Shown piece after piece: positions 2,906 through 29,370 of a stretch of 44,597 bases of DNA. The stretch covers positions 1 to 44,597 of IMG/VR virus record IMGVR_UViG_3300013132_000084, one strand, 5' to 3'. The DNA comes from a virus. Both the position numbers and the translations under genes were made by a program. Below the pieces are notes generated by a model. The model was not told the origin of the DNA, did no database searches, and saw only the letters and a list, made by a program, of their open reading frames with translations. The stretch's first letter is position 1. Every line of letters begins with the position of its first letter.

Positions 2906-4354
2906 ATGACAATTAATACTAATTGTAAAATATGTAATGAAAATTTTCAAACACTAAAGGGATTATCAACCCATATACAATATAAACATAAACTTACATC
3001 TGAACAATATACAATAAAATATATTCATGATGAAATTCGTCCGCAATGTAAATTGTGTTCTGAATTTACAAGATACGTATCATTTGAATTTAAAGAATAT
3101 TGTAAAGCCCATACCAAGGAAGCTTGTTCTGCGGCAGGTAAAACCGGTGGCAAAATAAAGAAAACTTGGAACAAAGGATTAACTAAAGAGAATGATGTCA
3201 GAATATATAATCAATCTTTATCGGTTGCTGGTTCTGCAAATCATTTCTATGGTCGTAAACATACAGAAGATACTAAAAGAAAAATTTCTATATTGAAAAC
3301 AATATCAGAGGATGAATTTAATAAAAGAATTGAATTGAGATCGAATGAATTTCGTTATTTATCAGATTACCAATCTTATACTAATAGACAGCATACAAAA
3401 TTAAAATTAGAATGCATTAAATGTTTTGGTAAACAAGAAAAGACGCTGCAAGCATATGAGCGTGGGGGTTTGTGTATATTTTGTTATCCTTTTATGGTTT
3501 CAAAAGATGAGATTCAAGTTGGAAACTATATAGAAAGTTTAGGATATCTCATTAAACGTAATAACAGAACTCTTATTTCTCCTAAAGAGCTAGACATAGT
3601 AGTTTTGGATAAGAATTTTGCTATTGAGTATAATGGATTATATTGGCACGATGTAGAAAAGGTTGGAAAGAATCACCATCAAGAAAAGACTAAAAAATGT
3701 AGAGAGATAAATTATTCTCTTTTTCATATCTTTTCTGATGAATGGGAGAGTAAATCTGAGATTGTAAAATCTATGATATCTAGCCGACTAAGATCTAACA
3801 ATATAGAAAACATTGATGCAAGAAAGTGTTCTGTAGTAGAGATCAAACCTCAACAGGCTCATAAATTTTTTGATTCATCGCACATTTCAGGGAATGTTCC
3901 TGCTAGCAAATATTTTGGATTAGAATATAGAGGAGATATTGTAGCAGCCATTTCATGGAGAGTTCCTCAGCAAAAGAAGAAATGGATCAAGAATAATCCT
4001 GATGTTATTGAGATAGCGAGATATGCTAATAAATTATATACAAATGTTCGAGGAGGCTTTAGTAAACTGCTTAAACATTCTATTAACAACTGGTTAGTTC
4101 CAGAAACAAAATATAGAAGAATAATAAGTTATTGTGATTTAAGATTTGGGTATGGAAATGTTTATCTTCAATCTGGATTTTCTTTGATTAAAGAAGATAC
4201 TGGTGTTAACTATTGGTATACTGATGGTAAGGTTAGATATCCCCGCTTTAAATTTCGTGCTACAAAAGATAAAACAGAAAAGCAGGTAGCAGAAGAAAAC
4301 AAGGTTTGGAAAGTATTCGGCTGTAGTAATGCTCTCTATGAGAGAGTCATATAA
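2906..4354 (+). CDS. Zinc-finger homing-type endonuclease (Vsr/PD-(D/E)XK-like)
   Basis: This 482-residue protein is probably a free-standing homing endonuclease. It begins with a C2H2 finger (CKIC...H...H, residues 7-28), then more Cys/His pairs (about 48-70 and 170-194). A short segment near residue 112 (HFYGRKHTEDTKRKIS) looks like a NUMOD3-type DNA-binding helix. The nuclease core is near 230-250: PKELDIVVLDKNFAIEYNG followed by LYWH, as in Vsr-like phage endonucleases. The long C-terminal half has the SYCDLRFGYGNVYLQSGF block often found with this nuclease. Ribosome site AGAGG lies 7 bases before the ATG. It sits alone between the capsid gene and unrelated genes and is more AT-rich, which fits a mobile insertion. 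Confidence 0.75.
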   Translation: MTINTNCKICNENFQTLKGLSTHIQYKHKLTSEQYTIKYIHDEIRPQCKLCSEFTRYVSFEFKEYCKAHTKEACSAAGKTGGKIKKTWNKGLTKENDVRIYNQSLSVAGSANHFYGRKHTEDTKRKISILKTISEDEFNKRIELRSNEFRYLSDYQSYTNRQHTKLKLECIKCFGKQEKTLQAYERGGLCIFCYPFMVSKDEIQVGNYIESLGYLIKRNNRTLISPKELDIVVLDKNFAIEYNGLYWHDVEKVGKNHHQEKTKKCREINYSLFHIFSDEWESKSEIVKSMISSRLRSNNIENIDARKCSVVEIKPQQAHKFFDSSHISGNVPASKYFGLEYRGDIVAAISWRVPQQKKKWIKNNPDVIEIARYANKLYTNVRGGFSKLLKHSINNWLVPETKYRRIISYCDLRFGYGNVYLQSGFSLIKEDTGVNYWYTDGKVRYPRFKFRATKDKTEKQVAEENKVWKVFGCSNALYERVI

Positions 4355-8503: not shown

Positions 8504-8536
8504 AGACCATGTGGTTAATTTCACATGGTCTTTTTA
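8504..8536 (+). terminator. Terminator after gp32
   Basis: A 10-bp stem AGACCATGTG/CACATGGTCT followed by a T-rich run (from 8531) lies 39 bases after the gp32 stop codon. Confidence 0.92.
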
Positions 8537-8600
8537 TTTTATTCTTTATGGTATATTTTTATATTTTTGTCAGTTAAGATTAATCAAACAAGAGGTTTAT

Positions 8601-10295
8601 ATGGCACGCCCCGCAAAAAAAGATAAAGAAACAACCGCAGAAGCTTCTATGACAGAAGACTTTGCAAATGAATTAATTAAAGAAATTAACAAAACTCATA
8701 ATGAAAAAATTGCTTTCAATTTAGGAAGCGATGATGCTCCTACCAATGTTAGTAGATGGATTTCTACCGGTTCTCGTCAGTTAGATTATATCATCGCTAA
8801 TCGTAGAGATGGGGGAATGCCAGAAGGACGTATTGTAGAAATACAAGGTCCACCAGGTATCGGTAAATCAACCCTAATGGCTCAAATAGCACGTTCCACC
8901 CAAAGAATGGGTGGTATAGTTGTTTTCATTGATACTGAGAATGCGACCAATCCAGATACTCTTTCTAATATGGGAATTGATGTCGCAAGAAGATTTGTAT
9001 TCGTTCAAACTCCATGTACAGAGGAAATCCTTTCAATTATTGAAAGCACTATCCTTAAAGCCCGTACAATGACCAAAGACGTTCCTGTTACCGTTATTTG
9101 GGATAGCGTTTCTCAGTCTTCTCCAAAGGCAGAGTTGGAAGGTGACTATGATCAGAATACCATCGGTCTACAAGCCCGTGTTCTATCTAAGGGCATGAGA
9201 AAGATCGCTAACGTTATCGGTGGTCAGAAAGTCTTGTTGGTTCTTGTATCACAACAAAGAATGAAAATTGGCTGTGTTGGACCTGAGACAAATATTCAAT
9301 ATTCTTACTGTAACAAAATAAAAAATGAAACAATAAAACAAATGTTCAATGAAATGGGATATGAATTTGAACAAATGCCAACAAATCAACCAATCCCAGT
9401 AACAGGATGGGAAGTAAAAACTTTAGACGAAAAAGGAAATGTTCTTTGGAAAGATGTTAAAAATATTATAAGAAAACAAAATGCAGTTCATATGAAAATT
9501 ATCACTGCATTGTCATATACATTATCCTGCTCTCCTGAACACAAAATATATGTAAAGCATATAAGCTCTGATTCCCCCTTATATGAAGAAGTTGGAACAA
9601 TTTTTCAAAATGAAAAAGAATATGTTGTTTTAACTGAAAAAGGTTGGTCTTCATTTGAAATTTCAAAAATCGATGGAGAATTAGAGATTGCAGATTTAGA
9701 AGTCGCAGATTCTCATTCGTATTTAAGTAACGGCATTCTTTCACATAATACTATGTTTGGTGATCCGACTACAACATCTGGTGGTATGGCGATACCATAT
9801 TCTTCATCTGTTCGTATTCGTCTTGATGGCGGGTCAGCAATAAAGGATAAAGAAGAAAATACAATTGGTATTAATGTAACAGCAAGAACTATTAAGAATA
9901 AGGTTGCCAAACCATTCCGCAAGGTTGGTTTCCAAATAATGTTTGGCAAGGGAATCTATGAAAACGATGAAATCTTTGATCTTCTCCGGGAGTATTGTAA
10001 GAATTCAAAGCGGGGAGTAGAGGTAAACGGAAAAACAGTAAATCTTTCTGGGGATGCCGCTTGGAAAACTTTTACTGTTATGAACAACAAGACTGGTGAA
10101 ATAGAAACGGAAATTAAGTTTTACAAACAAGAGTTTATGCAGAAGGTAGTCAATAAACCAGAGTATTCTGATTATATCAATGCTTTAATGGATGCGGCAT
10201 TAATTCTAAATGCAGAAGAAAGTCTAGAAGAGCATTCAACATATGAAAGGTTAACAGATGGAGAAATGGCTGCGGAACAACAGGTTAATGCTTGA
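8601..10295 (+). CDS. uvsX: UvsX/RecA-type recombinase interrupted by a mini-intein
   Basis: The precursor is 564 residues; removing the intein (9273-9749) leaves a 405-residue recombinase, near T4 UvsX (391). It forms filaments on single-stranded DNA for strand exchange, replication restart and repair. Visible motifs: Walker A GPPGIGKST (83-91), IDTENA as the catalytic-Glu region (about 116-121), LLVLVSQQRMKIG before the intein, and MFGDPTTTSGG after it, which continues the RecA sequence exactly. The start at 8601 has an AGAGG ribosome site; the open frame reaches back to 8511, but that extension runs through the gp32 terminator and is rejected. It follows gp32 and precedes the dUTPase. Confidence 0.92.
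   Translation: MARPAKKDKETTAEASMTEDFANELIKEINKTHNEKIAFNLGSDDAPTNVSRWISTGSRQLDYIIANRRDGGMPEGRIVEIQGPPGIGKSTLMAQIARSTQRMGGIVVFIDTENATNPDTLSNMGIDVARRFVFVQTPCTEEILSIIESTILKARTMTKDVPVTVIWDSVSQSSPKAELEGDYDQNTIGLQARVLSKGMRKIANVIGGQKVLLVLVSQQRMKIGCVGPETNIQYSYCNKIKNETIKQMFNEMGYEFEQMPTNQPIPVTGWEVKTLDEKGNVLWKDVKNIIRKQNAVHMKIITALSYTLSCSPEHKIYVKHISSDSPLYEEVGTIFQNEKEYVVLTEKGWSSFEISKIDGELEIADLEVADSHSYLSNGILSHNTMFGDPTTTSGGMAIPYSSSVRIRLDGGSAIKDKEENTIGINVTARTIKNKVAKPFRKVGFQIMFGKGIYENDEIFDLLREYCKNSKRGVEVNGKTVNLSGDAAWKTFTVMNNKTGEIETEIKFYKQEFMQKVVNKPEYSDYINALMDAALILNAEESLEEHSTYERLTDGEMAAEQQVNA
9273..9749 (+). mobile_element. Mini-intein in UvsX (159 residues, no endonuclease)
   Basis: The insert begins with Cys1 (CVGPETNIQYSY, block A) and ends ILSHN, followed by extein Thr+1. 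Block B is TLSCSPEHKIYV with the usual Thr and His; block F is IADLEVADSHSYLSNGILSHN-like with the penultimate His and terminal Asn. The sequence QRMKIG is joined to TMFGDP by splicing, rebuilding a conserved RecA segment. The length leaves only the splicing domain; there is no room for a homing endonuclease. The insert is more A-rich than the flanking exteins. Confidence 0.93.
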
Positions 10296-26819: not shown

Positions 26820-27857
26820 TCAAACATACCTTCTATAACCATAACCACTTCGACCACTACTGAATGTATATGAATTAGGCGGAGTAATGTCTTCACTAGA
26901 AATCTCCCTAGTTTCAGTAAAGATATGGGAATTCGTAATGACTCCCTTTACAGTATCCAGATGCTCCTTCTTAAATCGCCATAGCTTTGTCACAGGATCA
27001 AATGCACGAGAATCATAAGGAACAGCAGACTTCAAACTAGCAATAAATCCTGCCATGTTTGTATTTCGCATCCAATTAAACTGAAGAGTAAAATCCTCAC
27101 TCCTCATACGGATATATGCAACTCCATCTAGTGCTTCAGTAACTGTAGGAGTAATATAAAACGTCTGATCCGGTGCCGGTGGAACCCATGCAGCAGCCGC
27201 AGCACGAATCTCTCCAAAGTCTCCCTCGTACATTGGATAGAACCGCAACACAAGGCTCAGGAAGGGCTCTAGAAGGCTCACAGGAGCCATGTAAGGCTTG
27301 CCAACGGCACGAGGTAGCGTAACTCCACGAATGGCTGCAAATGCCCTATACGCATTCTTATTGCGGCTGCCCTGAAGATTTACCTTTCCATTCTCAAACC
27401 ATAGACGAGCTTCGCCAGTAGAAGCCTCACCAGAAAGAACACCAGCCAAACCAACATATCCAAGATGACGAACAACCTGAATAAGATGATCCCTGGTAGA
27501 TTCACGGGGATGACGATAAGAAAGAATAAAATCAATATTCTTTACAATCCGACGAAGATCCTCACCAGTCCAAGCAAAATTATTTGCCTGATCCACATTT
27601 GCTGCATTCTGCGTAGCCTCAAGAAGCTTCTGACGGGTTTCATGCCATAGAGAATGACACTCAGAATGCATTAGTTCATCGTTGATTGCAAGAGCACTAA
27701 TATTTGCCATTGCATAATTTGCAGGAATAGTCTTTGCATATAGCTTGGTGCTCTTACCTGCACAAAGCGGACCCATTCCACGTTCCATTGATGCTACATC
27801 GCTCAATTCACAACGGCAACGAGAACAATAACGGTGCTGTAGCGGCTGAAAAGTCAT
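26820..27857 (-). CDS. Zinc-ribbon protein with a HARP-like C-terminal region
   Basis: The 345-residue protein begins with CSRCRCELSDVASMERGMGPLC (two CxxC-type pairs, residues 11-32), a DUF6011-type zinc ribbon common in phage and host proteins. The middle (about 90-210) is helical. Near residues 265-310 there is NMAGFIASLKSAVPYDSRAFDPVTKLWRF, resembling the HARP-type module that binds branched DNA in SMARCAL1-like helicases; this second match is weak. Possibly DNA-binding. It has an AGGAGA ribosome site and its own promoter. Confidence 0.72.
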   Translation of the reverse strand: MTFQPLQHRYCSRCRCELSDVASMERGMGPLCAGKSTKLYAKTIPANYAMANISALAINDELMHSECHSLWHETRQKLLEATQNAANVDQANNFAWTGEDLRRIVKNIDFILSYRHPRESTRDHLIQVVRHLGYVGLAGVLSGEASTGEARLWFENGKVNLQGSRNKNAYRAFAAIRGVTLPRAVGKPYMAPVSLLEPFLSLVLRFYPMYEGDFGEIRAAAAAWVPPAPDQTFYITPTVTEALDGVAYIRMRSEDFTLQFNWMRNTNMAGFIASLKSAVPYDSRAFDPVTKLWRFKKEHLDTVKGVITNSHIFTETREISSEDITPPNSYTFSSGRSGYGYRRYV

Positions 27858-28443: not shown

Positions 28444-28776
28444 TAGGACCACCCGGACTCGAACCGGGACGCTCTTGCGAGCAGCAGATTTTCTTACCAC
28501 TATAGTTTTCACTACCCTTACGGTTTGTGGTCTGGACTATACCTTGACCTTCAACTCTACTTGTTCAGGTCCGCACCATCTAGTCTCTACACACGCCTGG
28601 AAATAATTCTCATTACTTCCTGCTTGGCTCGGGATTGCCATCAGCTTTACCTGCTAAGGTTTCACCGAATTTGATGCGATTCATTCAAAGCATTTCTGCT
28701 TAGATGCTCAAGTGTAAATGTTTATCATACATTTACCTACAAGTCTGCCATGTATACCTGATTCCATCATGATCCC
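28444..28776 (-). tRNA. tRNA-Leu(UAA) interrupted by a group I intron
   Basis: The exons (28741-28776 and 28444-28492) join into an 85-base class II tRNA. Acceptor GGGATCA/TGGTCCT with discriminator A; D stem ATG/CAT; anticodon stem GCAGA/TCTGC; loop CTTAAAA with anticodon UAA; variable arm with CTC-GCAA-GAG; T arm CCCGG-TTCGAGT-CCGGG. The CCA end is not encoded. The intron sits between U34 and A35, the same position as in cyanobacterial and plastid tRNA-Leu(UAA). A promoter lies upstream on the same strand. Confidence 0.93.
28493..28740 (-). ncRNA. Group I self-splicing intron in tRNA-Leu(UAA)
   Basis: The 248-base intron begins GUAGG and ends in G (omega G), after a 5' exon ending in U. 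Core elements are recognisable on the minus strand: ATTCGGTGAAACC (P), GGCAATCCCGAGCCAAGC (Q), GTGTAGAGACTAGATGG (R) and AAGGTATAGTCC (S). P1 can be drawn: exon CUU plus G pairs with UGAG, with the U-G wobble at the splice site, then a small internal loop and a 7-bp GTAAATG/CATTTAC stem. It carries no endonuclease gene. The pattern matches the bacterial tRNA-Leu(UAA) intron class. Confidence 0.93.
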
Positions 28777-28818
28777 ATTTTTAGTTTTCAATCAGTCTCT
28801 GTCAATCTCTACTCTCTT

Positions 28819-28847
28819 ACTATAGCATCTGTTCTTCTAAATGTAAA
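28819..28847 (-). promoter_or_regulatory. Promoter of the intron-containing tRNA
   Basis: Minus-strand TTTACA, 17-base spacer ending in GC, TATAGT, about 40 bases before the tRNA 5' end. Confidence 0.7.
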
Positions 28848-28872
28848 CTGTTTTCATCATTCTTTTTGACAA

Positions 28873-28959
28873 TACCAGCGGTCAGAGTCGAACTGACAAG
28901 AGTGTAAAAATACTCGGCGGGACTTGAAACCGCTGTGGCTGCCATTTCACCACGCTGGC
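28873..28959 (-). tRNA. tRNA-Leu(CAA)
   Basis: A class II cloverleaf: acceptor GCCAGCG/CGCTGGT with discriminator A; D stem GTG/CAC; anticodon stem GCGGT/CCCGC (one T-C mismatch next to the loop); loop TTCAAGT with anticodon CAA; long variable arm GAGT...ACTC; T arm GTCAG-TTCGACT-CTGAC. The CCA is not encoded. Confidence 0.85.
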
Positions 28960-28971
28960 ATAAACAAGTTT

Positions 28972-29235: not shown

Positions 29236-29273
29236 AATTTTATTTTCTTGAAGAATTTTATTGTTTATTTTAA

Positions 29274-29351
29274 TGGTGTAGGTGGGATTTGAACCCACAA
29301 GACGTTCCTACTTTATAAGAGTAGCGGCTGTACCAATTCGCCTTCCACACC
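29274..29351 (-). tRNA. tRNA with anticodon UAU (Ile)
   Basis: Acceptor GGTGTGG/CTACACC with discriminator A; D stem GGC/GCC; anticodon stem CTACT/AGTAG; loop CTTATAA with anticodon UAU; variable loop GAACGTCTT (9 bases); T arm GTGGG-TTCAAAT-CCCAC. UAU would read the AUA codon. Position 8 is A instead of U, and the D stem has 3 bp as in the two Leu tRNAs of the cluster, so aminoacylation identity needs care. Confidence 0.8.
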
Positions 29352-29370
29352 ATATTTTCTTGATGGATTT

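Follow-up and report, generated by a model that had tools for sequence, protein, structure and literature searches.

Group I introns that interrupt tRNA-Leu(UAA) genes between U34 and A35 are a classic of cyanobacteria and plastids. Small introns of the anticodon loop also occur in tRNA-Ile(CAU) of Azoarcus and in genes of the Agrobacterium tRNA-Arg(CCU) type, with a P3-P9 core similar to that of the intron described here but in other tRNAs, at other loop positions and on host chromosomes. Phages harbor group I ribozymes as well, often together with homing endonucleases, as in td, nrdB and nrdD of T4, in Twort and in the Bastille group, but these introns interrupt coding genes, whereas the one described here interrupts a tRNA. 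According to the review of Hausner et al. (2014), all phage introns then known lie in protein genes, despite the many tRNA genes of phages (PMC3984707). The main text of the 2020 huge-phage paper does not mention introns (PMC7162821), and a 2025 paper on a group I intron database names viral introns without touching on tRNA genes of phages (PMC11835236). No prior report of phage tRNA introns was found in the open-access literature, subscription papers and preprints being outside the scope of the search. In sequence records, the nearest case is Microcoleus phage My-WqHQDG (OR578706), in which a tRNA-Arg of 286 nt with an anticodon-loop intron is already annotated at full length; it differs from the present case by its tRNA, a tRNA-Arg(CCU), and by its junction, located after position 36.

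The locus analyzed here is carried by a viral genome fragment, IMG/VR virus record IMGVR_UViG_3300013132_000084 (44,597 bp; this whole stretch is called the window hereafter), whose virus identity is known only roughly. Its genes are T4-like and include those for a major head protein, a baseplate hub, UvsX and a single-strand binding protein. The capsid protein, T4-like too, shares less than 49% identity with those of the nearest cultured phages, the first-listed match being a Microcystis phage. The major capsid gene (866-2782) is immediately followed by a plus-strand reading frame (2906-4354) for an HNH-type homing endonuclease of 482 aa that bears a NUMOD3 motif. The UvsX/RecA-like protein (8511-10295, plus strand, 594 aa) matches RecA in two stretches and, over residues 274-349, weakly matches an intein-splicing domain, so that this recombinase probably contains an intein.

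We are highly confident that the phage possesses a tRNA-Leu(UAA) gene whose anticodon is interrupted by a small group I intron; this intron is of the bacterial tRNA type, is predicted to splice and would represent a dispensable insert at a recombining site (Table 1). ARAGORN lists four tRNAs on the window, and the split gene is not among them. Once the two exons are joined, the same program calls a tRNA-Leu(taa) of 85 nt, whose acceptor stem counts 7 bp and whose anticodon and T stems count 5 bp each, whereas the unspliced segment (28776-28444) yields no tRNA, even with intron options, only the neighboring tRNA-Leu(CAA) being reported there. The first-pass annotation had proposed that a full class II tRNA forms only when 28493-28740 is removed, and these coordinates prove exact. 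The spliced molecule is indeed a class II tRNA with the intron exactly in the anticodon; its first acceptor pair, a G-U, is a minor blemish. UUA represents 28.6% of the leucine codons of the window.

Table 1. Features of the split tRNA-Leu(UAA) gene and of its surroundings in the window.
Feature	Position	Strand	Description and evidence
tRNA-Ile(UAU), uninterrupted neighbor	29273..29352	minus	ARAGORN; conserved in L243 and L245
tRNA-Leu(CAA), uninterrupted neighbor	28872..28960	minus	ARAGORN
tRNA-Leu(UAA) 5' exon	28741..28776	minus	Acceptor 5' strand, D arm, anticodon stem 5' strand, C32 U33 U34; ARAGORN on spliced exons; aligns with uninterrupted tRNA-Leu(UAA) of L243 and L245
P1	28707..28743	minus	Exon CUU (28743-28741) pairs with intron GAG (28709-28707); U-G at 5' splice site; loop extended by a 7-bp hairpin
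Group I intron	28493..28740	minus	248 nt, between U34 and A35, terminal G; RF00028, 94% identity to L118 intron, absence in L243 and L245, covariation
P3 helix	28572..28678	minus	28678-28673 pairs with 28577-28572; 100% paired, compensatory changes in 5/6 pairs
P7 helix	28535..28585	minus	Guanosine-binding core helix, pseudoknotted with P3; 28585-28581 pairs with 28539-28535; 100% paired, compensatory changes in 3/5 pairs
P9 domain	28496..28531	minus	Adjoins the 3' splice site; 98% paired, compensatory changes in 4/5 pairs
tRNA-Leu(UAA) 3' exon	28444..28492	minus	A35 A36, anticodon stem 3' strand, long variable arm, T arm, acceptor 3' strand, discriminator A
Next gene downstream	26820..27857	minus	345 aa, no assigned function; homologues anchor synteny with L118, L243, L245 and L246

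A focused Rfam search assigns positions 28511-28736 to the group I intron family RF00028 (52.3 bits, E 2.5e-12), a score only just above the gathering score of 50; a second search gives E 3.5e-14, and a quick default-speed Rfam scan of the whole window missed the intron. Covariation was analyzed on 31 aligned phage and bacterial precursors of tRNA-Leu(UAA), using the structure drawn from the window. Across these relatives, 94.7% of the cells of the named structure are paired, with 435 double changes, and both sides have changed somewhere in 49 of the 68 pairs. When the partners are slid by 1-3 columns, pairing falls to 31-44%, and none of 500 shuffles reaches as high. P3, P7 and P4 are 100% paired, P9 98% and P8 86%, with compensatory changes in P3, P7, P8 and P9. 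Most relatives were picked by a core motif and all of them by tRNA pairing, so that the pairing of P4 and of the tRNA stems is partly true by selection, whereas P2, P3, P7, P8, P9 and the intron side of P1 stand outside these criteria. P4 shows no variation at all, in part because the pattern by which most loci were chosen covers one of its strands. A proposed P6 pairing fits only 49.5% across the relatives and was set aside.

The P1 helix with a U-G pair at the splice site and the G ending the intron (position 28493), both already noted in the first reading, are recovered here: the pair types CG, UA and UG of P1 are invariant in 31/31 precursors, the terminal G being itself a condition of the search for relatives. 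The intron resembles those of Azoarcus and cyanobacterial tRNAs and is a candidate member of subgroup IC3. With the cyanobacterial and plastid introns it shares the tRNA, the U34/A35 position, the U-G splice site, the small size and a similar core; it differs from them by its phage setting, a separate clade in the trees described below, the extra hairpin of the P1 loop and the coexistence of alleles with and without intron in near-identical relatives. The ribozyme itself looks like a typical representative of a well-known family, and it is its setting that the literature has overlooked.

As predicted from this structure, the intron RNA would fold after transcription (P1-P9) and bind guanosine in P7; the strand would then be cut 3' of U34, where P1 has its U-G pair, U34 would be joined to A35 as the intron leaves, and the restored tRNA would read UUA. 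No endonuclease reading frame was found inside the intron of the window, whose 248 nt are too few to hold one in addition to the core. Since it carries no endonuclease, the intron would currently be unable to home unaided.

The same intron is found at the same, syntenic locus in a second phage contig, L118, which was identified by an intron motif and is the only match to an exact 22-base intron pattern. Between the window and L118, identity reaches 94% in the intron, 91% in exon 1 and 85% in exon 2, versus 77% in the upstream flank and 74% in the adjoining gene. Three other contigs, L243, L245 and L246, carry at this locus a tRNA-Leu(UAA) without intron, although their flanks are 99.0-99.6% identical to those of L118. 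In L243, whose ATPase protein is 82% identical, the uninterrupted tRNA-Leu(UAA) occupies the position of the split gene in the window; across 2.5 kb downstream this contig is 99.1% identical to L118, and both are therefore regarded as strains of one phage. In L243 and L245, the junction falls exactly at the predicted place, which establishes the insertion between U34 and A35 claimed in the first-pass annotation. L246 displays a different tRNA-Leu(UAA) sequence. Given these allele differences among L118, L243, L245 and L246, the locus is a hot spot of replacement. The first-pass annotation had also considered a very old lineage, an idea that finds no support at this locus, where contigs with 99% identical flanks differ in the presence of the intron. 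The intron would rather be an insert that the phage can do without, at a site exchanged through recombination, close relatives existing with or without it. A second pair of this kind consists of L022, with an intron in tRNA-Arg(UCU), and the cultured cyanophage S-SZBM1, whose uninterrupted tRNA-Arg equals the L022 exons except for small D-loop differences.

Close protein relatives of the gene located downstream (26820-27857) were not found from the window sequence alone and came through the L118/L243 alignment. The block lying upstream of the split gene in the window (28777-28866) shows conservation among relatives, and L243 has a comparable copy ahead of tRNA-Ile (4060-4121); this block is possibly a shared promoter or processing signal.

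In the three intron-free contigs, a 251-aa reading frame starts 3-15 nt behind tRNA-Leu(UAA). The protein combines a helix-turn-helix-like start with two LAGLIDADG-like motifs (LLGLYLGDG and LKGLIHSDG) and shows a Pfam LAGLIDADG_3 match that is weak and below cut-off, as well as weak I-DmoI matches. Its Foldseek matches are nearly all LAGLIDADG endonucleases, a comparison that counts as supporting evidence only, because the fold model of the L243 protein is poor (pLDDT 44). The L243 protein has no match among cultured phages and no usable NCBIfam match. Taken together, these features weakly suggest a LAGLIDADG-type endonuclease. Free-standing homing endonucleases such as SegB of T4/T6 likewise lie beside phage tRNAs, at a tRNA locus that recombines (PMC13096335). 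SegB is a GIY-YIG enzyme, whereas the present gene is LAGLIDADG-like, alternates with a tRNA intron and belongs to the relatives, being absent from the window.

This alternation is strict among the alleles compared, as the putative endonuclease gene is present in 3/3 intron-free alleles (L243, L245 and L246) and in 0/2 intron-bearing ones (the window and L118), which suggests competition or co-conversion on the basis of five alleles only. It could mean that intron and endonuclease are competing alleles, the enzyme cutting the intron-free tRNA-Leu of co-infecting rivals and the intron, which splits the target, being kept as a shield. The near identity of the flanks around the two states and the LAGLIDADG-like signatures of the protein speak for this proposal, as does L246, in which a different tRNA-Leu(UAA) is accompanied by the same endonuclease, as if recombination were replacing pieces of the locus. 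Nevertheless, the five alleles come from two lineages, so that the anti-correlation may reflect a single exchange, the Pfam match stays below its cut-off and the fold model is poor; we regard the proposal as rather improbable. It would add to the reading of a spliced, dispensable intron and leave its splicing part unchanged. A wider version, about as improbable, would see phage tRNA genes as a battleground between introns and homing endonucleases, in which the free-standing LAGLIDADG-type enzyme beside intron-free tRNA-Leu(UAA) attacks the tRNA genes of rivals and the intron is an immunity allele spreading among phages and into bacteria. It is highly unlikely, on the other hand, that the element is a decayed, non-splicing remnant in a tRNA-Leu pseudogene. 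The covariance score is modest, and the final position at which P4 could pair, a G-C in L118, corresponds to a U-C mismatch in the window, where it could weaken the ribozyme, but the exon stems are intact, the core helices pair and the intron is better conserved than the adjoining gene.

The origin of the intron was addressed with a bacterial and archaeal sample of 115 genome stretches, which yielded 76 split tRNAs. In this sample, introns at the 34/35 site of Leu(UAA) are not confined to Cyanobacteria but recur in Bacteroidota, Alphaproteobacteria, a gammaproteobacterial bin, Acidobacteriota, Planctomycetota, Bacilli and Chloroflexota, i.e., in at least seven non-cyanobacterial groups, and CAU-type introns sit after position 36. 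Two trees were built, from 97 and 93 introns of phages and bacteria. The cyanobacterial introns form one clade (98/97 and 99/99) that includes neither the window intron nor any phage intron, and the window intron groups with phage introns (98/87). This clean split, seen in the first tree, is weakened by the AU test, which gives no support for exclusion: a topology in which one branch separates the window and cyanobacterial introns from all the others is not rejected (p 0.54 and 0.40). The intron phylogeny called for by the first-pass annotation thus places the window intron outside the cyanobacterial clade in the best trees, although the two may still be kin, and the deeper placement of the intron, as estimated from these alignments, is not secure. 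That the whole intron-bearing tRNA-Leu gene was recently acquired from a cyanobacterial host would agree with the shared insertion site, with these p values and with the Microcystis phage heading the capsid matches; we nonetheless consider it very improbable, given the two groupings in the trees, a site common to many non-cyanobacterial bacteria and the 15 best blastn neighbors of the window intron, all of which are phage introns. In the trees, the introns of phage and bacterial tRNAs are intermingled and a single phage clade is rejected (p 0.003 and 5e-21), implying that introns have passed repeatedly between phages and bacteria. Hence, the phage-host exchange suggested at first sight is supported for phages and bacteria in general, but not for cyanobacteria or plastids as its specific source.

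The tRNA-Leu(UAA) introns from the Chloroflexota and Bacilli bins of this sample (L156, L175, L187 and L229) and from a 595-kb phage (L004) contain, except for L187, a similar HNH frame, which suggests phage-bacteria exchange. In the same sample, two contigs labelled Pacearchaeota (L135 and L144) carry tRNA-Asn(GUU) with group I-like introns; they may be bacterial contigs placed in the wrong bin or else an instance in archaeal tRNA. In three Patescibacteria contigs (L167, L172 and L224), group I-like introns interrupt tRNA-Phe(GAA) close to where the anticodon loop begins.

Split tRNAs also occur in dozens of further phages. A survey of viral contigs with an 18-base core pattern returned at least 119 stretches, to which four phage-collection loci and the window were added, all being processed with a custom split-tRNA finder. 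This core-motif scan, combined with BLAST, gives at least 72 split tRNAs in at least 69 phage loci, the window included, and at least 32 intron clusters below 90% identity. Besides at least 17 clusters in Leu(UAA), six further tRNA species are concerned, with at least 5 clusters in Arg(UCU), 4 in Lys(UUU), 3 in Asn(GUU) and 1 each in Lys(CUU), Arg(CCU) and Ser(UGA). With 2,160 random anchors on the same loci, the finder returned any match for 30 and a score of at least 19.5 for 12, and nine of the ten best listed random-anchor matches are true intron loci struck by accident. Several intron-bearing contigs include phage structural genes. Split tRNAs are found in the cultured Agrobacterium jumbo phage Atu_ph07, whose tRNA-Leu contains a 278-nt intron and whose annotation has a hypothetical protein spanning the junction, in 735-kb and 595-kb huge phage records and, as tRNA-Arg, in the Microcoleus phage mentioned above. 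Endonucleases of their own are carried by the introns of L004 (HNH) and of L060 and L066 (LAGLIDADG_2). Five introns (L002, L003, L004, L005 and L008) do not reach RF00028 at E 0.01 and rest on the split-tRNA structure, complemented by alignment for L002 and L003.

The novelty lies in the setting and in the scale, as compared with a review denying such introns. Common tRNA finders do not report split phage tRNAs, as seen here for ARAGORN and as stated for tRNAscan-SE 2.0 by its own authors, who did not design it for group I intron detection (PMC8450103). Phage tRNA inventories, which serve arguments on codon use and anti-defense, therefore undercount them. The natural alleles with and without intron in near-identical phages are unusually clean and make testable both the movement of small tRNA introns without endonuclease and the shielding of a gene from the homing endonuclease of a rival.

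Gordonia phage Daredevil (L008, about 838-1150) also harbors, as seen by eye, an unannotated tRNA-Lys(UUU) split by an intron after U34, with an unusual T loop, about 570 bases from the integrase gene. In four loci of the survey (L048, L058, L100 and L116), split tRNAs with the anticodon UAA display a short variable region of 5 nt, unlike the body of a class II tRNA-Leu.
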